Part shown: one piece after another, positions 10,020 to 30,658 of the stretch
Position numbering within the stretch: position 1 is the stretch's first letter
How the letters are laid out: each line of letters starts with the position of its first letter
Assembly (NCBI GenBank): GCA_003154775.1
Contig: PMES01000114.1
Span: 1-38,148 of the forward strand
Source of the DNA: Acidobacteriota bacterium
GTDB taxonomy: Bacteria; Acidobacteriota; Terriglobia; Acidiferrales; UBA7541
Reading direction: 5' to 3'
Length of the DNA: 38,148 nt
Translations under genes and position numbers: made by a program
The notes under the pieces: generated by a model
Told to the model about the DNA's origin: nothing
Database searches by the model: none
What the model saw: the letters and a program-made list of their open reading frames with translations, nothing else

Positions 10020-10454
10020 AATGCGACGATAGCCTCCGGAGCGCCCCACATCGATTCTGCTCACAGCGACAGGCACCGCTCACGAGGGATTTTCGTGGCA
10101 GGCGTCGAATATTTTTACAGGCAACTCTCGCAGGAACTCCAAGTAGCCGCGTGGCGCTGAATACTTAATCACCCGCTGCTGCATTTCACATCAGCCCGAT
10201 TTCGTTTGCCATCCTCCTTCTTATCTTCGAGTTACCCAAGCACGTTGAATCAAACGCGATCTTGCCCGCTGCAAATCGCAACGCTTCGCGCCTCGTTTTT
10301 CAGCAATCTTTTCTCGCCTTCTCCTCTTGGTCCCCACGAAGTCTTTTCTTATGAGCAACTTAACCTGCTGGCTCAGAATTCTCTTGAATTGGCAGACGAG
10401 TTGCCCTTACAGAGTCTGGAGTTAAGAACACGCTAGGAACCCCGGAGGCGGGCC
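10020..10454 (+). promoter_or_regulatory. Intergenic region upstream of the GcvH-like gene
   Basis: This 435-base stretch lacks a convincing gene; a 76-codon frame at 10206-10436 is Ser/Leu-rich and has no ribosome site. It is more AT-rich than its flanks. Its right end contains the sigma-54 type promoter listed separately. The rest would be the place for activator sites, but I could not recognise a repeated one. Confidence 0.5.
10389..10405 (+). promoter_or_regulatory. Sigma-54 (RpoN) type -24/-12 promoter before the GcvH-like gene
   Basis: The sequence TTGGCAGACGAGTTGCC holds GG at 10391-10392 and GC at 10403-10404 with the required 10-base spacing. It matches the consensus TGGCAC-N5-TTGC at nearly all conserved bases. 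Transcription would begin near 10415. The GcvH-like ATG is at 10455, with GGAGG at 10444. An NtrC-type activator gene lies 4.7 kb downstream. Confidence 0.75.
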
Positions 10455-11126
10455 ATGACAGTCATTCTGATGCTTGTGATGTTCGCGATCTTCCTCACCA
10501 TCGACTATCTGAGAAAGCGCAAAGAAGTGCCACACACGGCAGAAGGAAGAGAAGAATCGGCGACACTTTCGCCGCGCATGCTGCCCAGCTTTGTAGCAGG
10601 CTTTGAGTTGCCGGATAACCGACGCTATCACCTAGGCCACACTTGGGCGTTGCAGGAAAGCCCCACCTTGGTTCGCGTGGGAATCGATGATTTTGGCGCG
10701 CGGCTTGCCGGAAAGCTTGACGGGCTCGTCCTCCCCAAGCGCGGCCAGTGGCTGCGGCAAGGCCAGAAATTCGCTACCCTTATCCGCGACGGCCAGCGCA
10801 CTGATCTGGTTTCCCCGATCGAAGGCGAAGTCACCAACGTCAACGAAGCCCTCACTGCCAATACTTCCTTGGCCAACACGGACCCCTACGGAGAGGGTTG
10901 GTTCGTTTCCGTGATCTCGCCCGATCTGCAGATCAGTTTCCGCAACCTCCTCAACGGTAGCCTGGCACGCAAGTGGATGGCCGATGCCGCCAGCCGCCTG
11001 CAGGTTCGCATGCCGACCCTCGCCGGTGTTGTTGCCCAAGACGGCGGCCCGGCTGTACATGATCTGACCGCGCAGATGCCCACGGAAAAGTGGGGCGAGA
11101 TTACCCGCGAGTTCTTCCTTACCTAA
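10455..11126 (+). CDS. Membrane-anchored GcvH-like (lipoyl-domain fold) protein lacking the lipoyl lysine
   Basis: A 223-residue protein. Residues 2-18 form one membrane helix followed by RKRK, which by the positive-inside rule puts the C-terminal domain in the cytoplasm. Residues about 55-155 match glycine cleavage H protein: HTWA, VRVGIDDFGARLAG, LPKRGQ, PIEGEVTNVNEAL and the very typical NTDPYGEGW. In true GcvH the lipoyl lysine sits in ESVKAVSD; here the aligned segment is LIRDGQRTD, with Gly113 in place of the lysine. The protein therefore cannot be lipoylated at that site and is unlikely to serve glycine cleavage. No gcvT or gcvP is nearby. It has a GGAGG ribosome site, a sigma-54 type promoter upstream and its own strong terminator. 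A role with the adjacent Fe-S/NrfD complex is inferred. Confidence 0.85.
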   Translation: MTVILMLVMFAIFLTIDYLRKRKEVPHTAEGREESATLSPRMLPSFVAGFELPDNRRYHLGHTWALQESPTLVRVGIDDFGARLAGKLDGLVLPKRGQWLRQGQKFATLIRDGQRTDLVSPIEGEVTNVNEALTANTSLANTDPYGEGWFVSVISPDLQISFRNLLNGSLARKWMADAASRLQVRMPTLAGVVAQDGGPAVHDLTAQMPTEKWGEITREFFLT

Positions 11127-11146
11127 CGTCCTACTAGTAAACTCCA

Positions 11147-11189
11147 GCCAAGGCCCCGGTCGAAAGTAGACCGGGGCCTTGGCGTTTTT
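11147..11189 (+). terminator. Rho-independent terminator after the GcvH-like gene
   Basis: Two perfect 15-base arms (11147-11161 and 11169-11183, starting GCCAAGGCCCC) enclose a 7-base loop and are followed by GTTTTT. It lies 20 bases after the GcvH-like stop and separates that gene from the HybA-like operon. Confidence 0.95.
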
Positions 11190-11240
11190 CCACACTTGAT
11201 GGACTCACTGAAGTTGGCAGTTGAAATAATCCGCATACCT

Positions 11241-11258
11241 ACGTGACGCAGGTCACGT
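11241..11258. promoter_or_regulatory. CRP/FNR-type palindromic operator
   Basis: The sequence ACGTGACGCAGGTCACGT has two perfect 7-base arms around GCAG. It contains GTGA-N6-TCAC, the core recognised by CRP/FNR-family regulators. It lies in the leader of the HybA-like redox operon, about 70 bases upstream of a weaker sigma-54 candidate. The palindrome is seen directly; the binding family is inferred from its geometry. Confidence 0.6.
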
Positions 11259-11310
11259 CCCAGAGTGCCAAGACTCACAGGAATCCAACCCCAGCTCCTC
11301 TATATTCATC

Positions 11311-11327
11311 TTGGGTCAGCGATTGCG
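11311..11327 (+). promoter_or_regulatory. Possible sigma-54 promoter before the HybA-like operon (weak)
   Basis: TTGGGTCAGCGATTGCG has GG (11313-11314) and GC (11325-11326) at the required spacing, with TTGC at -12, but the -24 element is TTGGGTC rather than TTGGCAC. It would give a leader of about 150-220 bases. The rest of 11190-11488 shows no gene. Confidence 0.4.
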
Positions 11328-11560
11328 CAGAAGGTTTCATCGCTGATGAGGTCACCCCCGCTGAGCTTTTCTACAGTTCTCGAACATCGTAGTGCGTCGT
11401 CTGACCCAGATGTTCGGATGACCCTCCGTCAGTTTTTGGGCCCTCGGGCGGCGCTGGATCGAGCGCCAAGTGTCGATCTGAGCCACCTATGAAAGTACGA
11501 ATTCAGTCCCCGATCACGTCCTTCAAGTCTTCTGACGAGGATGAGCCACAGGGAGCGTTT

Positions 11561-12331
11561 ATGAGTAAGGGCATTCTCTACGACGCGACTCTCTGTATCG
11601 GCTGCAAATTGTGCGAAAAAGGATGTGCCGAGCGAAACGGCCTCCCCTACGACGACACCATTGCCGCTGAGCAGAAGCAGTCAGAGCACAAGTTCACCGT
11701 GGTTCTGACGCGCCAGGACAAATTCATGCGCCGCTTGTGCATGAATTGCCAGGATCCGAGTTGCGTCTCCGTGTGCCCGGTTGGCGCATTTCGTAAGACG
11801 GCGGAGGGTCCCGTCACGTACGCCGCCTCCAAGTGCATGGGGTGTCGCTACTGCATGCTGGCGTGCCCCTTCTTCGTCCCCAAGTATGAGTGGGGCAAGA
11901 CCTCTCCCCTCGTGCGCAAATGTGATATGTGTGCGGACCGCGTGGCCCAAGGTTTGCAGACCGCCTGCGCCGACGCCTGCCCCACCGGCGCCACCAAGTT
12001 CGGCGACCGCGATGCCCTGATCGCCGAAGCGCAGCAGCGCCTCCGCGACAATCCGGGCAATTACGTCAATCACATTTACGGGCTCAACGAAGTGGGCGGC
12101 ACTTCCGTCCTGCTGCTCTCCAGCGTCCCCTTCGAGCAGTTTGGGTTCCGCACGGACCAAACCACCGAGCCCATGCCCCTGCTGACAGCCCGCGTTCTTA
12201 CACACGTTCCCGACGTCGTCACACTGGGCTCTGTTCTACTGGGTGGCATCTGGTGGATCTCCAATCGCCGCGTTGAAGTGGCAGAGGCCGAGGGAAACGC
12301 AGACAATCCCCGCCCCGCTTCCCAGAAATGA
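11561..12331 (+). CDS. HybA-like 4x[4Fe-4S] ferredoxin subunit with C-terminal membrane helix
   Basis: An electron-transfer subunit of 256 residues. Four cysteine groups predict four [4Fe-4S] clusters: CIGCKLCEKGC, CMNCQDPSCVSVCP, CMGCRYCMLACP and CDMC...CADACP. Order and spacing match HybA of hydrogenase 2, as does a C-terminal membrane helix (VVTLGSVLLGGIWWIS). I chose ATG 11561, which has GGGAG at ideal spacing and starts right at the fold (GILYDATLC). An ATG at 11489 would add 24 residues. Neither start gives the Tat signal that HybA carries, so the clusters may face the cytoplasm. The NrfD/HybB gene follows after 13 bases. No hydrogenase or molybdoenzyme catalytic subunit is present. Confidence 0.92.
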   Translation: MSKGILYDATLCIGCKLCEKGCAERNGLPYDDTIAAEQKQSEHKFTVVLTRQDKFMRRLCMNCQDPSCVSVCPVGAFRKTAEGPVTYAASKCMGCRYCMLACPFFVPKYEWGKTSPLVRKCDMCADRVAQGLQTACADACPTGATKFGDRDALIAEAQQRLRDNPGNYVNHIYGLNEVGGTSVLLLSSVPFEQFGFRTDQTTEPMPLLTARVLTHVPDVVTLGSVLLGGIWWISNRRVEVAEAEGNADNPRPASQK

Positions 12332-12344
12332 GGATCAACGGACC

Positions 12345-13517
12345 ATGCCAAAGATTAAATTAACGTTCTGGAAGACCGTACTAATCGTCATCCTGATTCC
12401 CGGCGTGTATTCGTTGATTTACCGTCTAACCCACGGCCTCGGGCAATCCACCAACCTGAACGATGAGTTTCCTTGGGGACTCTGGGTGGGCTTCAAACTC
12501 TTTTCCGTCGCCTTGGCCGGAGGCGGCTTCACCCTCGCAGCCGTGGTCTATATTTTCAACCTCAATCGGTATCGTCCCGTGCTGCGAGCCATGATCCTCA
12601 CCGCGTTCCTCGGCTACTCCATGTTCATCGCTTCCCTGATTCTCGATCTCGGCAGGCCTTTACGCATCTGGCACCCCATCATCATGTGGAACCACCGTTC
12701 CGTCATGTTTGAGATTGCCTGGTGTGTGATGCTCTATACCACCGTGCTTCTCTTGGAATTCCTTCCGGTGGTGCTCGAGCGCCTTGGCTGGAAGCGCCAG
12801 CTCGCCTGGATGCACACCATCATGATTCCCCTGGTAATCGCGGGCGTGATTCTTTCCACCCTCCATCAGTCGTCCCTCGGCAGTCTCTATCTGATCGTGC
12901 CCGGCAAGCTCTACCCGCTCTGGTATTCGTCCCTCGAGCCGGTTTTCTTCTTCATCTCCGCCATTTGCGCGGGCCTCGCCATGACCATCTTTGAATCCTG
13001 GCATGCGGATAAGTCGTTCCAGCAGCGCGTGAAACTCCCGCTCCTCACGGGCCTGGGCCGCGTCCTGGCCGTGGTGCTTTCCTTTTACCTCAGCCTGCGG
13101 GCCGTGGATCTGGCGCGCCGCCAGGCCTTTCATCTGCTCTTGCAGCGGCGTCCGGAGACCTACCTCTTTTCACTGGAGATTCTTCTGCTCCTCGTGCCGA
13201 TGTTCCTGCTGTTTCGCCGCCGTGTTCATACCAATCGCACGGCCCTCTATTTTTGTTCCGTGCTGACGCTGCTTGGCATTGTCGCCAACCGCATGAATGT
13301 CGCCATCACCGGTATGCTGGCCTCTTCTGGCAACAAATACTTCCCGAAGTGGACGGAAATTTCCATCACCTTGGCCATTATCGCTTCCGGGTTCCTGGTC
13401 TTTGCATTGGCGGTGAAGTACCTGCCGATCTTCGGCAGCATGCCGTCCCGCCAGCCGGTGGCAGAACCGGAAACCGCCCGGGGCCAGCTTCCGGAGCTTT
13501 CCCATGTCGAATCCTGA
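12345..13517 (+). CDS. NrfD/HybB-family polytopic quinone-interacting membrane subunit
   Basis: A 390-residue integral membrane protein with about nine or ten hydrophobic helices, of the HybB (PsrC/NrfD-like) type. It passes electrons between the Fe-S partner and the menaquinone pool. The family pattern is visible in the N-terminal PWGLWVGFKLFSVALAGGGF, in RPLRIWHPIIMWN, and in HQSSLGSLYLI. The frame is open further upstream inside the HybA-like gene, but ATG 12345, with GAGG upstream, gives the natural N terminus. The last 14 bases overlap the histidine kinase gene. Together with the Fe-S gene it forms a two-subunit module whose electron donor or acceptor is not encoded here. Confidence 0.93.
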   Translation: MPKIKLTFWKTVLIVILIPGVYSLIYRLTHGLGQSTNLNDEFPWGLWVGFKLFSVALAGGGFTLAAVVYIFNLNRYRPVLRAMILTAFLGYSMFIASLILDLGRPLRIWHPIIMWNHRSVMFEIAWCVMLYTTVLLLEFLPVVLERLGWKRQLAWMHTIMIPLVIAGVILSTLHQSSLGSLYLIVPGKLYPLWYSSLEPVFFFISAICAGLAMTIFESWHADKSFQQRVKLPLLTGLGRVLAVVLSFYLSLRAVDLARRQAFHLLLQRRPETYLFSLEILLLLVPMFLLFRRRVHTNRTALYFCSVLTLLGIVANRMNVAITGMLASSGNKYFPKWTEISITLAIIASGFLVFALAVKYLPIFGSMPSRQPVAEPETARGQLPELSHVES

Positions 13518-15171
13518 AGACAGATCGGGCCTATCGTACCTGTGGAAGAGTGTCACGGGCAGCCTCAGTTCCAAGCTGCTCCTGCTGCTCGTCTCTTCAA
13601 TGGCCCTCGTCTTCGGAGTGCTGGGCTACCTGAACATTCAGTTGCACCGCACGCACCTGGAGCGCGACGCTCTCGCGGATGCCGCCCGCACCAGCAGCGT
13701 CATCAAGCGCAACACCTCCTACTACATGCTCCGCAATCAGCGCGACGGCCTCTATCACATCATCACCGAAATGGCGGATGAGCCCGGCATGGTCCGCATC
13801 CGCATCATCAACGATCAGGGCCGCATCAGCTTTTCCTCCGATACTTCCGAAATGTACAAGTACGTGGACCAGAACATGAAGGCCCACGATGCCGCCGTGC
13901 CTGGCAGCGCGCTGCGCATCTCCGACATCAAGCAGAACTTTCGCACCTACCGGCTCCCCAATGGCGCGCGCGCGCTTGGCGTAATCGACCCCATTGAAAA
14001 TGCCCCGGCCTGCAGCAATGCGGAATGCCACGCCCATCCCGCCGAGGTGAAGGTCCTTGGCGTCCTCGATACCAACATCTCCCTGGCCAGCAGCGAACAA
14101 AACGTCGCCGAGAGCACGCGCCAGGTGCTGCTCTACACCATTCTCGCGGTCTTTGGCGTCGCTATCCTCAGTGTCGGCTTTGTGCGCCGCATGCTTCAGG
14201 GGCCGCTCACCGCCCTTACGGAAGGCACCAAGCGCATCGGTTCGGGCGACCTCGGCTATCAGATCAAGATCCCGTCGCACGGTGAACTGGAGGACCTGGC
14301 CACCTCCTTCAACACCATGAGCTCGCAGCTCCGGGCGGCCCACCAGGAAATCAACGCGTGGGCGCGAACTCTGGAAGCCCGCGTGGAAGAGAAGACGCGC
14401 CAGCTCAAGGGCGCTCAGGACGAGATGTTGCGCGTGGAGCGTATGGCTTCCATCGGCAAGCTCGCCGCCGTCGTCGCCCACGAAATCAATAATCCGCTGG
14501 CCGGCATACTCACCTACGCCAAATTGCTCAAGAAGCGCCTTTCTCGCGATGCTGCCACACAAATAGAAAACCAAAAAGAAAACATCGAAATGCTCGACCT
14601 GGTTGAGACCGAGAGCCGCCGCTGTGGCGAAATCGTCAAAAATCTCATGACCTTCGCGCGCGCCACATCCTTGAGCCGCGAGCCGGCCGACTTGAACGCC
14701 GTCATTGATCGCTGCATCCGCCTCGTTCAGCACCAGTTGGAGCTGAAGAACATCGAACTCCACCTCAATCTTGCTCCGGATCTTCCAAACGTCCGCTGCG
14801 ATCCTGGCCAAATCGAACAAGTGATCCTGGCCCTCGTCATGAACGCCATCGACGCGCTTCCGAATGGTGGAAACCTGACACTGAACTCTCATCCGCTGCC
14901 AGGTACCGGCAACATCCAGATTGAAGTCCGGGACGACGGCGTCGGCATGCCTCCAGACGTCCTCGCAAATATGTTTGAACCCTTTTTTACGACCAAAGAG
15001 CACGGGCGCGGTCTTGGCCTTGGTCTGGCCATCAGCCGCAACATCGTGGATCGCCACGCCGGCAAGATTGCAGTGGCTTCAGAGGCTGGCCGTGGGACAT
15101 CCTTCACGATCACACTGCCTGTGCACTCCAATGTCGTGTTGAACAATGGCTCCGCGGTTGTCGCGGGGTGA
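13504..15171 (+). CDS. Membrane sensor histidine kinase with a CX4CH (heme c-like) periplasmic motif
   Basis: A 555-residue NtrB-type kinase. Helix 1 is at about 22-44 and helix 2 at about 207-227, enclosing a periplasmic domain of about 160 residues. That domain contains CSNAECHAHP (Cys170, Cys175, His176), a CX4CH motif of the kind that binds heme c in some multiheme cytochromes. HAMP follows at about 228-280, then a coiled coil, the phospho-acceptor His326 in VVAHEINNPLAGI, N-box MNAIDALPNGG, G1 DDGVGMP, F-box FEPFFTTKE and G2 GRGLGLGLAIS. All catalytic boxes are intact. The gene overlaps the NrfD gene by 14 bases and precedes its evident response regulator by 12. Redox or gas sensing is inferred from the motif and context. 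Confidence 0.93.
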   Translation: MSNPEDRSGLSYLWKSVTGSLSSKLLLLLVSSMALVFGVLGYLNIQLHRTHLERDALADAARTSSVIKRNTSYYMLRNQRDGLYHIITEMADEPGMVRIRIINDQGRISFSSDTSEMYKYVDQNMKAHDAAVPGSALRISDIKQNFRTYRLPNGARALGVIDPIENAPACSNAECHAHPAEVKVLGVLDTNISLASSEQNVAESTRQVLLYTILAVFGVAILSVGFVRRMLQGPLTALTEGTKRIGSGDLGYQIKIPSHGELEDLATSFNTMSSQLRAAHQEINAWARTLEARVEEKTRQLKGAQDEMLRVERMASIGKLAAVVAHEINNPLAGILTYAKLLKKRLSRDAATQIENQKENIEMLDLVETESRRCGEIVKNLMTFARATSLSREPADLNAVIDRCIRLVQHQLELKNIELHLNLAPDLPNVRCDPGQIEQVILALVMNAIDALPNGGNLTLNSHPLPGTGNIQIEVRDDGVGMPPDVLANMFEPFFTTKEHGRGLGLGLAISRNIVDRHAGKIAVASEAGRGTSFTITLPVHSNVVLNNGSAVVAG

Positions 15172-15183
15172 GGAGCAGCTATC

Positions 15184-16536
15184 ATGGCCACAAAAGGGAA
15201 TTTGCTCGTTGTCGATGACGAACTGATTGTCCGCGACTCTCTCGATAAGTGGTTTCGCGAGGAAGGCTACGATGTCACCGTGGCCGAAAGTGCCCAGGAC
15301 GCGCTCACCAAGATGGCCGCGAAGCGCTTTGACTTGGCGCTCGTCGATATCAAGATGCCCGGCACGGATGGCGTCGAGCTGCAGCGCCGCATGCACGAGA
15401 TCGACCCCGAAATGCTCGTGATCATCATGACCGGCTACGCCAGCGTGGAAACCGCCGTCGCGGCCCTCAAGAATGGCGCCTACGATTATGTCTCCAAGCC
15501 CTTTGACCCGGACGATATCGCTCATAGTGTCCACAACGCCCTTTCCCACAAGCGTGCGGAACAGGAGAACGTCCGCCTGCGCGAAACCGTTGCTTCCGTG
15601 GTTCGCCCCCAGGAAATTGTCGGACAAAGCGCCGCGATGGTCCGCGTTTTTGAAGCCATCCAGACGGTTGGCCCGACGGACGCCACCGTTCTGATTGCCG
15701 GCGAAAGCGGCACCGGCAAGGAACTCTGCGCCCGCGCGATCCATGCGGCCAGCCCCCGCCACTACAATCCGCTCGTGGTGATCCATTGCGGCGCACTGGC
15801 GGAAACGCTCCTCGAAAGCGAGCTTTTCGGCCATGAAAAAGGCGCGTTTACCGGCGCGCAGTACCGCAAAAAGGGCAGCTTTGAAGTTGCCGAAGGCGGC
15901 TCCGTCTTCCTCGATGAAATCGGCGACATCAGCCTGAAGACCCAGACCGATCTATTGCGAGTTCTCCAGGAACGCGAAATCACCCGCGTCGGCAGCACGC
16001 ATCCCATCCAGGTGGACTTCCGCTGCATTGCCGCGACCAACAAGAAACTCGAACAGCTCATCGAAGAAGGCCGCTTCCGTCCCGATCTCTTCTACCGTCT
16101 GAATGTCTTTCAGATCCAACTGCCTGCGTTGCGCGATCGCAAGGGCGATATCCCGATTCTGGTGGAACACTTTGTGCGCAAGTTCTCCGCTTCCATGAAC
16201 AAGCGCATCAATCGTGTCTCGCCGGCCGCCATGGCCCTCCTGGACCGCTACCAGTGGCCCGGCAATGTCCGCGAACTTGAAAATGCTGTCGAACGCGCCA
16301 TGGTTGTCGCGCAGGAGCCTGAAATTCGCGAAGAAGACCTCGCTTTGCGCCTGCCCCTCGCCGAACATCAGCCCCGTACTCTCGAAGACATTGAGCGTGC
16401 CCACATCCTCGCCGTTTTGGAAGATTGCAAGGGCAACCAGACCCTCGCCGCCGAAATCCTCGACATCGATCGCGTCACCTTGCACAACAAGCTCAAGAAG
16501 TATGGTTGGAAGCGGGTCACTGCGGACGCCCTGTGA
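15184..16536 (+). CDS. Sigma-54-dependent response regulator (NtrC/AtoC family)
   Basis: A 450-residue three-domain activator. The receiver domain (about 8-120) has the acidic pair in VVDDE, phospho-acceptor Asp55 in VDIKMPG, and the Lys in SKPFDPDD. The AAA+ domain (about 145-370) has Walker A GESGTGKE and the sigma-54 contact loop GAFTGAQ. A Fis-type helix-turn-helix ends the protein (NQTLAAEILDIDRVTLHNKL). The GAFTGA loop means it should activate RpoN promoters. Such promoter patterns occur before the GcvH-like gene (10389), possibly before the HybA-like gene (11311), and before the ferredoxin (30363). It follows the sensor kinase closely and overlaps the next gene by four bases. Confidence 0.96.
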   Translation: MATKGNLLVVDDELIVRDSLDKWFREEGYDVTVAESAQDALTKMAAKRFDLALVDIKMPGTDGVELQRRMHEIDPEMLVIIMTGYASVETAVAALKNGAYDYVSKPFDPDDIAHSVHNALSHKRAEQENVRLRETVASVVRPQEIVGQSAAMVRVFEAIQTVGPTDATVLIAGESGTGKELCARAIHAASPRHYNPLVVIHCGALAETLLESELFGHEKGAFTGAQYRKKGSFEVAEGGSVFLDEIGDISLKTQTDLLRVLQEREITRVGSTHPIQVDFRCIAATNKKLEQLIEEGRFRPDLFYRLNVFQIQLPALRDRKGDIPILVEHFVRKFSASMNKRINRVSPAAMALLDRYQWPGNVRELENAVERAMVVAQEPEIREEDLALRLPLAEHQPRTLEDIERAHILAVLEDCKGNQTLAAEILDIDRVTLHNKLKKYGWKRVTADAL

Positions 16537-17081
16537 ACTTCGTTCAGCTACTCCCGTTCGGCCCCGCCGCCGCGGAGACGCTGTCGGAACTCCGCGCAGG
16601 ACTCGAGCGTGAATTCGCTGTCCCCTGCGAAATTCTTCCGCCGGAGCCGGAGCCCGCTTTTGCCTTCAATCTCACCCGGCAGCAGTACTCTTCCACCGAA
16701 ATCCTAGCCGCGATGCTGAAGCGCAACACTCCCGCGAAGTGGCGCCTCCTCGGCGTTACCCCTCTGGACCTCTACATCCCGATCCTCACGTTTGTTTTTG
16801 GGGAAGCCCAATTACCCGGCACCTGCGCGGTAGTTTCCTCTCATCGCCTCCGCCAGGAATTTTATGGCTTGCCTGTCGATCCCAAGCTGCAGCACGAGCG
16901 TTTGCTCAAGGAAGCCGTCCACGAGCTCGGCCACACCCTCAACCTGTCGCACTGTGAAGACTACCAGTGCGCCATGGCTCCTTCTCACGGTGTGGAATGG
17001 ATTGACCTGAAAACCAGCGGCTTCTGCGGCACTTGCCGCACTCTTGTCCCCACCCGCAGCATCCTCAACGCTTCCAGATAG
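16533..17081 (+). CDS. amzA: Archaemetzincin-type zinc metalloprotease
   Basis: A 182-residue protein from a GTG that overlaps the regulator stop (GTGA). It carries the archaemetzincin signature: HELGHTLNLSHC (His130, Glu131, His134, His140) followed by C-X4-C-X-M (Cys141, Cys146, Met148) and a final FCGTCR (Cys165, Cys168) for a second zinc. The gap before the last CXXC is 16 residues, close to the usual 17. Asn137 stands where most metzincins have Gly; Asn is known at this position in some. Length fits archaeal AmzA. No signal peptide, so it is cytoplasmic. Substrates are unknown for the family. Its coupling to a sigma-54 two-component operon is notable. Confidence 0.9.
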   Translation: MNFVQLLPFGPAAAETLSELRAGLEREFAVPCEILPPEPEPAFAFNLTRQQYSSTEILAAMLKRNTPAKWRLLGVTPLDLYIPILTFVFGEAQLPGTCAVVSSHRLRQEFYGLPVDPKLQHERLLKEAVHELGHTLNLSHCEDYQCAMAPSHGVEWIDLKTSGFCGTCRTLVPTRSILNASR

Positions 17082-30362: not shown

Positions 30363-30378
30363 TGGCACGCGAATTGCA
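30363..30378 (+). promoter_or_regulatory. Sigma-54 (RpoN) promoter of the ferredoxin gene
   Basis: TGGCACGCGAATTGCA (GG at 30364-30365, GC at 30376-30377) matches the RpoN consensus TGGCACG-N4-TTGCA at every conserved base. Transcription would start near 30388, about 19 bases before the ATG at 30407. An imperfect GTGCG/CGCAC inverted repeat at 30272-30289, about 90 bases upstream, is a possible activator site. Confidence 0.85.
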
Positions 30379-30406: not shown

Positions 30407-30658
30407 ATGGCCTACATCATTGTTGACACCTGCACGAAAGACGAACACTGCATCGAGACTTGCCCCGTCAATTGCATTCATCCCACCAAGGATGAAGCGG
30501 ACTTTGCCACCGCCCCTCAGCTTTACGTGAATCCGGGGGAATGCATTGATTGCGGCGCTTGCGTCCCGGTTTGCCCCACCGGTTCGATCTTTGTTCTCGA
30601 AGAATTGCCGGAGGAGTACAAATCCTTCGTCGATAAGAACGCGGCGCGCTTCAACTGA
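30407..30658 (+). CDS. Small two-cluster ferredoxin
   Basis: An 83-residue soluble ferredoxin. The first cysteine group is CTKDEHCIETCPVNC (Cys9, 15, 19, 23) and the second CIDCGACVPVCP. The wide first spacing resembles the FdxA/7Fe type, in which one cluster may be [3Fe-4S]; which form exists cannot be told from sequence alone. The acidic C-terminus (LEELPEEYKSFVDKN) is common in the group. ATG 30407 has AAGGA at good spacing. It is monocistronic, bounded by a consensus sigma-54 promoter and a strong terminator. It may serve as electron carrier for the HybA/NrfD module under the same control; that link is inferred. Confidence 0.94.
   Translation: MAYIIVDTCTKDEHCIETCPVNCIHPTKDEADFATAPQLYVNPGECIDCGACVPVCPTGSIFVLEELPEEYKSFVDKNAARFN

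Follow-up and report, generated by a model that had tools for sequence, protein, structure and literature searches.

Among described systems, the closest to the protein studied here are the H-protein of the glycine cleavage system (GcvH) and LbpA, the GcvH-like lipoate-binding protein of the Hdr-like sulfur-oxidation pathway. In LbpA, the lipoate lysine is reported to be strictly conserved, and two cysteines are also conserved except in some archaeal members (PMC6067878). The genes beside our protein have their closest counterparts in the HmcBC/HybAB-type NrfD modules and the NtrC-type two-component systems. A search of the open-access full-text literature found no description of the cassette or of its gene combination; subscription papers and preprints lay outside this scope, so absence is unproven. 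The window, by which we mean the whole stretch of 38,148 nucleotides analysed, comes from an Acidobacteriota bacterium. Its gene dgcvH (10455-11126, + strand) encodes a putative membrane-anchored, lipoyl-less GcvH-like protein of 223 aa, as indicated by its ORF, Pfam and a predicted structure.

An earlier note on this DNA had claimed a GcvH fold with Gly113 instead of the lipoyl lysine, and both parts of this claim were borne out. The Pfam GCV_H model matched residues 57-168 of dGcvH (E 6.6e-18), and all 14 matches in a sequence search of the PDB were H-proteins. In a phmmer alignment, Thermus GcvH (1onl) covered residues 51-154 with a single gap opposite residue 73 and none from 74 to 154; VESVKTASDI of 1onl lay opposite LIRDGQRTDL of dGcvH, and the 1onl lysine fell opposite Gly113. 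The AlphaFold2 model, for which a 14-row family alignment was the input, had a mean pLDDT of 84, with residues 51-180 in blocks at 93-98, and predicted strands at 105-111 and 114-119 joined by a turn at 112-113. Alignment and model place the lipoyl-type hairpin at residues 105-119 (10767-10811, + strand), with Asp112-Gly113 (10788-10793, + strand) at its tip in place of the lipoyl lysine. GcvH structures came first when the model was searched with Foldseek (E 8e-13), and H-proteins came first with VIA-align (Z 14.5-19.8, rmsd 1.5-1.9 over 115-131 residues). Below the H-proteins, lipoyl/biotinyl and other folds followed at low scores, and the C-terminal tail was barely covered. This tail, where the model is less confident, holds a conserved DGG motif (Asp196-Gly197-Gly198; 11040-11048, + strand).

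The earlier note had named beforehand, as refuting its claim, another lysine at the hairpin tip. The lysines of dGcvH stand at positions 21, 23, 87, 95, 105, 173 and 212, with none from 106 to 172, and because of these positions and the modelled hairpin there is no alternative lysine at the tip. Lipoylation at a neighbouring lysine was considered and rejected: relatives have lysines at varying places near the tip, and the window protein has none in the interval just given. Lys105 was also rejected as the lipoyl site, as it stands at the beginning of a strand, eight residues from the tip. On alignment and model, an H-protein fold without the lipoyl-carrying lysine is confirmed for dGcvH. Neither a cysteine nor a heme motif was found in the whole sequence. 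The N-terminal helix and RKRK described in the same note are present: DSSP on the model assigns a helix to residues 2-22 (10458-10520, + strand), which is taken as a membrane anchor with RKRK next to it, and by the positive-inside tendency dGcvH probably lies on the cytoplasmic face.

The only other GCV_H match of the genome is to a canonical GcvH (ESVKA), which scored above the cut-offs of both TIGR00527 (149.8) and NF002270 (166.6). The window protein was below both, with 55.6 against 115.85 and 72.8 against 117, and it was also below the cut-offs of NF045810 (GcvH-related, desulf; 31.7 vs 150) and TIGR03077 (not_gcvH; 38.7 vs 144.05). No glycine cleavage genes lie nearby, as had been stated before: a Pfam and NCBIfam scan of the six neighbouring proteins revealed none.

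On the + strand of the window, dgcvH is followed by genes for a HybA/HmcB-like Fe-S protein, an NrfD/HmcC-like protein, a histidine kinase, a sigma-54-dependent regulator and an archaemetzincin. At high-GC loci, genes were called by a composition-weighted ORF caller, and some ORF starts are still too long. The HybA/HmcB-like protein (11561-12331, + strand; its ORF opens at 11489, and its orthologues in L004 and L006 start at MSK) has no Tat signal. The NrfD/HybB/HmcC-like membrane quinone subunit (12345-13517, + strand; Pfam/NCBIfam, with a presumed start) was above the Pfam NrfD cut-off; the pair remained below the cut-offs of NF045715, NF045714, NF008134 and NF008133 (267.5/420, 305.4/550, 200.3/263 and 282.3/450, respectively). 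The sensor histidine kinase (13504-15171, + strand) has HAMP, HisKA and HATPase_c domains by Pfam, and residues 170-176 form a CX4CH heme-type motif (14011-14031, + strand) between hydrophobic stretches at ~19-39 and ~204-224. This motif suggests that the kinase binds heme; an AlphaFold2 model of the sensor part, made with four orthologues only, had a pLDDT of 38. The regulator (15184-16536, + strand; Pfam) has a receiver, an AAA+ domain with GAFTGA and a Fis HTH, as NtrC-type regulators do.

Archaemetzincins (peptidase M54) are marked by the motif HEXXHX5HCX4CXM plus CXXC, and to our knowledge no substrate is known for the bacterial ones. The archaemetzincin of the window (16533-17081, + strand) would comprise 182 aa from a GTG that overlaps the TGA stop of the regulator. 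It scored above the cut-off of NF033823 (149.6 vs 145), and its zinc motif is HELGHTLNLSHCEDYQCAM plus CGTC, with Asn at the Gly position of the motif. All 32 M54 rows compared had HEXXH; 21 had the full motif with Gly, and 11, the window included, did not show the full pattern. Thus the kinase, the regulator and the archaemetzincin match their general families.

Relatives of dGcvH were collected by a scan of GTDB species genomes, which gave 10 loci, and by whole-genome searches of 396 Acidobacteriota genomes and of 247 genomes of a second phylum, that of a Desulfobacterales genome (G398). In the second phylum, 67 of 247 genomes had relatives at E <= 1e-35, or 64 without canonical-length matches, eight of which were excluded before the M54 count. 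Relatives were also present in 5 of 7 genomes of the phylum of L009, labelled Myxococcota, and the family was found in Acidobacteriota, Desulfobacterota (Thermodesulfobacteriota) and Myxococcota. The cassette is accessory, as only 2 of 25 genomes of the window's genus, L004 apparently coming from one of these two, carry the family at E <= 1e-40. A plasmid collection yielded seven matching records (six annotated gcvH, one unannotated), none of which covers 80% of the query.

For the domain set, 185 of 193 profile matches were kept (eight of other length were left out, apparently including the canonical L161), which gave 154 distinct domains, 136 of the lipoyl-less family and 18 canonical. Lysine at the lipoyl column was absent in 132 of the 136 and present in 18 of 18 canonical domains, the latter partly by definition because the canonical set was delimited by ESVK/DSVK context and the tree split. 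The 22 domains with lysine at this column comprise the canonical ones (17 with ESVK, and L160 with DSVK) and L112, L102, L093 and L147, in which it stands in other contexts. Among the 132 without lysine, glycine was the commonest residue (58). The family matches the Pfam H-protein model, yet nearly all of its members are without the lipoate-carrying lysine. In the maximum-likelihood tree of the 154 domains, a branch (99/84) separated the 17 ESVK sequences from the rest, and with L160 the values were 100/99; many forks are unresolved because there are only 105 columns. H59, G61 and D78 are common in the lipoyl-less family but seldom occur in canonical GcvH. Of 124 relatives, 102 have a C-terminal extension that contains DGG or TGG.

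Some relatives without the membrane helix (L010, L011, L012, L077 and others) have one or two cysteine motifs of the LCDxxYxCxxCPFD type N-terminal to the domain, and in those of L012, L010 and L077 Pfam reported no family above cut-off for these parts. L188 (G031) encodes a pair of short GcvH-like proteins that have a lysine near the site (EAAKMT, ESGKW), and Fe-S motifs are present in a gene nearby; we take these proteins to resemble LbpA of an Hdr-like pathway, here in an acidobacterium. L188 was excluded from the promoter and DGG counts below; it is, however, included in the 92 regions, as is G031 in the six genomes with dGcvH alone.

To compare gene neighbourhoods, we used regions chosen mostly by similarity rank, sometimes two per genome. 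Of 95 regions, 92 were counted; L171, L177 and L178 had no domain match at the cut, though L218 shows a receiver fusion in G097, the genome of L171. HybA was present in 55 regions, NrfD in 57, the kinase in 63, the sigma-54 regulator in 60 and M54 in 50; 77 of the 92 regions had at least one of these five partners, and 15 had none. When the count was restricted to the 53 regions with over 5 kb on each side, the respective numbers were 32, 32, 40, 38 and 36. Thus, the histidine kinase, the sigma-54 regulator and the archaemetzincin are partners comparably tight to HybA and NrfD. Several dGcvH genes (L043-L046) are separate from the redox genes. The kinase carried CX2CH or CX4CH in 43 of 44 regions with both NrfD and kinase, against 8 of 19 without NrfD (Fisher 1.3e-6, relatedness ignored); p-values overstate here, because the rows are related and several regions can come from one genome.

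By eye, a twin-arginine N-terminus is present on the HybA-like protein in one cluster set and absent in the set of the window. Since both kinds occur beside similar NrfD and dGcvH proteins, the membrane side on which the Fe-S domain lies seems to differ between the two sets. In L075 (9426-11102), Pfam identified an NrfD with a C-terminal cytochrome c7 domain that has three CxxCH, and heme-motif counts point to NrfD-cytochrome c7-type fusions in L074, L076 and L077.

A sigma-54-type -24/-12 element, TGGCAGACGAGTTGCC (10390-10405, + strand), starts 65 bases before the start codon of dgcvH; it has three mismatches to TGGCACGNNNNTTGCW with GG and GC intact, and it is weak alone. Indeed, a scan of the whole window at <=3 mismatches gave 61 sites against 72.7 expected, which is no excess over chance. 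L003 and L004 have elements with two mismatches 66 and 103 bases ahead of the ATG, respectively, and among 13 distinct close relatives, the window included, 10 had a site with <=3 mismatches no more than 140 bases from the start, while L005, L208 and L210 had none at this threshold and distance. In the family-wide scan against TGGCACGNNNNTTGCW, in which the -24 GG and the -12 GC were required and about 300 bases upstream plus the first 60 bases of the gene were covered, 34 of 82 leading dgcvH genes had an element with <=2 mismatches (1.15 expected from shuffles), compared with 18 of 407 other leading genes (5.3 expected; Fisher 2.7e-17). At <=1 mismatch, the numbers were 19 of 82 and 5 of 407 (Fisher 5.9e-12). 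Only 1 of 35 internal dgcvH genes was preceded by an element with <=2 mismatches, and the five leading receiver-dGcvH genes in the promoter set had none at <=3 mismatches.

The only perfect sigma-54 consensus of the window, TGGCACGCGAATTGCA (30363-30378, + strand), is found elsewhere, starting 47 bases before an ATG at 30410 that opens a ferredoxin-like gene of 82 aa. The ferredoxin may therefore share the regulon; the best matches among its relatives listed start downstream of the promoter.

A second arrangement was revealed by fusions. In 14 genomes, 13 of Acidobacteriota (G065, G236, G153, G318, G295, G211, G330, G097, G378, G354, G133, G190 and G268) and G573 of the second phylum, a receiver lies N-terminal to the dGcvH domain; Response_reg and GCV_H were both assigned by Pfam in L163, L173, L175, L214 and L218, and the other fusions were recognised by receiver motifs. 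The fusion sequences that were read have an N-terminal hydrophobic helix ahead of the receiver. A kinase homologue and NrfD lay nearby in 12 of the 14, and of the remaining regions, L174 (G295) stops at a contig end and that of G236 is 2.7 kb long. No M54 was found in any of the 14 genomes at E <= 1e-8, and no DGG was found in the tails of the fusions, although one of the two L214 proteins is without most of its tail. In addition, two other fusions were found in the second phylum: a dGcvH domain lies C-terminal to HdrA-like, FlpD and molybdopterin-binding parts in L146 (7104-10022), and in L141 the domain is joined to flavin/Fe-S parts. L147 (4636-7602) is the tree neighbour of L146 and of similar length.

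M54 was associated with dGcvH. Among the 396 Acidobacteriota genomes, 48 had both, six had dGcvH alone, 50 had M54 alone and 292 had neither (54 with dGcvH and 98 with M54 in total). The cut used here (E <= 2.4e-18) drops 11 of the 13 receiver-fusion genomes, all without M54, and more of this kind probably fall below it; when these 11 were added, the counts became 48, 17, 50 and 281 (Fisher 1.6e-20). As the receiver-fusion genomes have no M54, the link concerns stand-alone dGcvH. In the second phylum (247 genomes), the corresponding counts were 59, 5, 32 and 151. The distance between the dGcvH and M54 genes was at most 16 kb in 32 Acidobacteriota genomes, mostly 0.7-8 kb, and in 54 of the 59 genomes of the second phylum; by our own estimate, the chance of such proximity in a genome of several Mb is ~1%.

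The C-terminal tail followed the same pattern. DGG or DGA was found in the last 75 residues of all 66 proteins (60 DGG, 6 DGA) from 43 M54-bearing Acidobacteriota genomes, and in none of eight proteins from eight M54-less ones, where the only script match, to the TGA of L170, was discounted on visual inspection because it is not the motif. Six of these eight are receiver fusions and the others are L066 and L069, so that only two events may lie behind them. The second phylum has exceptions: DGG occurs without a detected M54 in G593, G602 and G467, on contigs of 3.6-7.3 kb, G517 has TGG, the receiver fusions of G573 have neither DGG nor M54, and the paralogues L145, L146 and L147 have SGG or AGG in M54-bearing genomes. 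The rule is therefore looser there than in the Acidobacteriota examined.

We propose, with a probability of roughly 0.55, that dGcvH is a regulated docking or switch accessory subunit in a heme-sensing, sigma-54-controlled HybA/NrfD redox cassette. According to this proposal, positions 10390-17081 of the window would form one cassette, in which a c-heme-type sensor kinase and the sigma-54 regulator control the co-encoded, quinone-linked HybA/NrfD membrane pair. dGcvH would be an accessory subunit of this pair that has lost the lipoyl arm and is held at the cytoplasmic membrane face; as a docking or switch domain it would connect the redox complex with the signalling proteins, and it would carry neither electrons nor one-carbon groups. 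In the arrangement of the window, its amount would be set by sigma-54-driven transcription, and the archaemetzincin would probably act on its C-terminal DGG tail. In the second arrangement, with the receiver fused to dGcvH, no M54 found and the tail missing, it is as if phosphorylation took over this control. Several observations speak against the proposal: the three mismatches of the window's promoter element and the lack of such an element in three close relatives, the exceptions to the DGG/M54 rule in the second phylum, the 50 Acidobacteriota genomes that have M54 but no dGcvH above the cut, the 15 regions with none of the five partners, the dGcvH genes that are separate from redox genes, and the rarity of the family in the window's genus.

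The earlier note had suggested a structural or electron-relay partner of the Fe-S/NrfD complex, and these parts fared differently: the tie in gene order is supported, and the relay is not. That dGcvH serves as a constant, purely structural component for assembling or anchoring HybA/NrfD, whose operon the kinase, regulator and protease merely regulate, is a possible but doubtful explanation. It agrees with the frequencies of HybA and NrfD (55 and 57 of 92 regions), with L052 and L066 (and L053, cut by a contig end), where dGcvH stands with HybA/NrfD and no two-component genes were detected, and with the fusions to HdrA/FlpD-type (L146) or flavin/Fe-S parts (L141); the receiver-dGcvH fusions, as well as regions such as L010, L011, L134, L135 and L136 with dGcvH, kinase, regulator and M54 but without NrfD, speak against it. 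A relay of electrons between the Fe-S protein and NrfD is very improbable. The Fe-S and NrfD genes of the neighbourhood, the precedent of LbpA as a GcvH-like protein in a redox pathway (PMC6067878), and a CX4-7CX2C motif somewhere in the ORF of 34 of 124 relatives would favour it, but the window protein has no cysteine, lipoyl lysine or heme motif to carry electrons, and 73 of 124 relatives have no cysteine from domain start to end. The receiver fusions without M54, the sigma-54 elements, the missing cysteines and the DGG/M54 tracking favour signalling over a relay, and a regulatory or docking role fits better.

Receivers usually form the input side of a fused effector. This, and the promoter elements that precede dgcvH and so suggest a target rather than a sensor, make it unlikely that dGcvH instead senses the redox complex and passes its state on to the kinase or regulator, with M54 as the effector, although the tight links to kinase, regulator and M54 would be the same association data under that explanation. 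The idea that dGcvH is an ordinary GcvH paralogue still working in glycine cleavage is scarcely credible: its GCV_H match is above the Pfam cut-off, but the lipoyl lysine is absent, the NCBIfam scores are far under the cut-offs, a canonical GcvH is encoded in the genome, and one tree branch separates the canonical sequences.

Under the docking or switch proposal, this looks like a metabolic carrier fold recycled as a regulatory part. A more general and quite tentative extension is that the lipoyl-less H-protein domain may be an undescribed two-component effector domain that would switch quinone-linked NrfD, and elsewhere Hdr/FlpD-type, redox complexes on or off. Its control would come from a fused receiver in one case, and in the other from induction of dgcvH by sigma-54 combined with proteolysis by a dedicated archaemetzincin via the DGG tail; bacterial archaemetzincins would then have a physiological substrate. 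If the signalling explanation is true, a classic metabolic carrier fold became a regulatory domain that links sensor kinases to membrane respiration, and bacterial archaemetzincins gain a testable role. The receiver fusions and the DGG/M54 link make it open to bench testing.

Compared with known systems, dGcvH resembles GcvH (PF01597, TIGR00527) in the fold of the whole domain and in the conserved HxW, SPxxGxV, VN and PYGxGW, and its model also matches GcvH-L of Streptococcus pyogenes (5a35, Z 12.1). However, it lacks the lipoyl lysine, has an N-terminal helix, is extended at the C-terminus by about 50 residues that include DGG, shows the H59/G61/D78 signature in place of canonical residues, and differs in its gene company. 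LbpA (PMC6067878) is similarly a GcvH-like protein that has come to serve an Fe-S redox pathway, and some dGcvH domains are fused to HdrA/FlpD-type parts, but the window protein has neither the lipoyl lysine nor the cysteines. Judged by its sequence, dGcvH is not a glycine-cleavage H-protein, with no lysine and scores far below the curated cut-offs, nor is it LbpA. As in HmcBC/HybAB-type NrfD modules, a HybA/HmcB-like Fe-S protein adjoins an NrfD/HmcC-like protein; the window pair, however, scores under the model cut-offs, its Fe-S protein has no Tat signal, and the cassette further contains dGcvH, M54, a sigma-54 regulator and a kinase with a heme motif. Finally, the window has a full kinase and a sigma-54 regulator with GAFTGA like NtrC-type two-component systems, but here this pair is tied to a redox pair, and in other lineages dGcvH takes the place of the AAA+ and DNA-binding parts as the fusion partner of a receiver.
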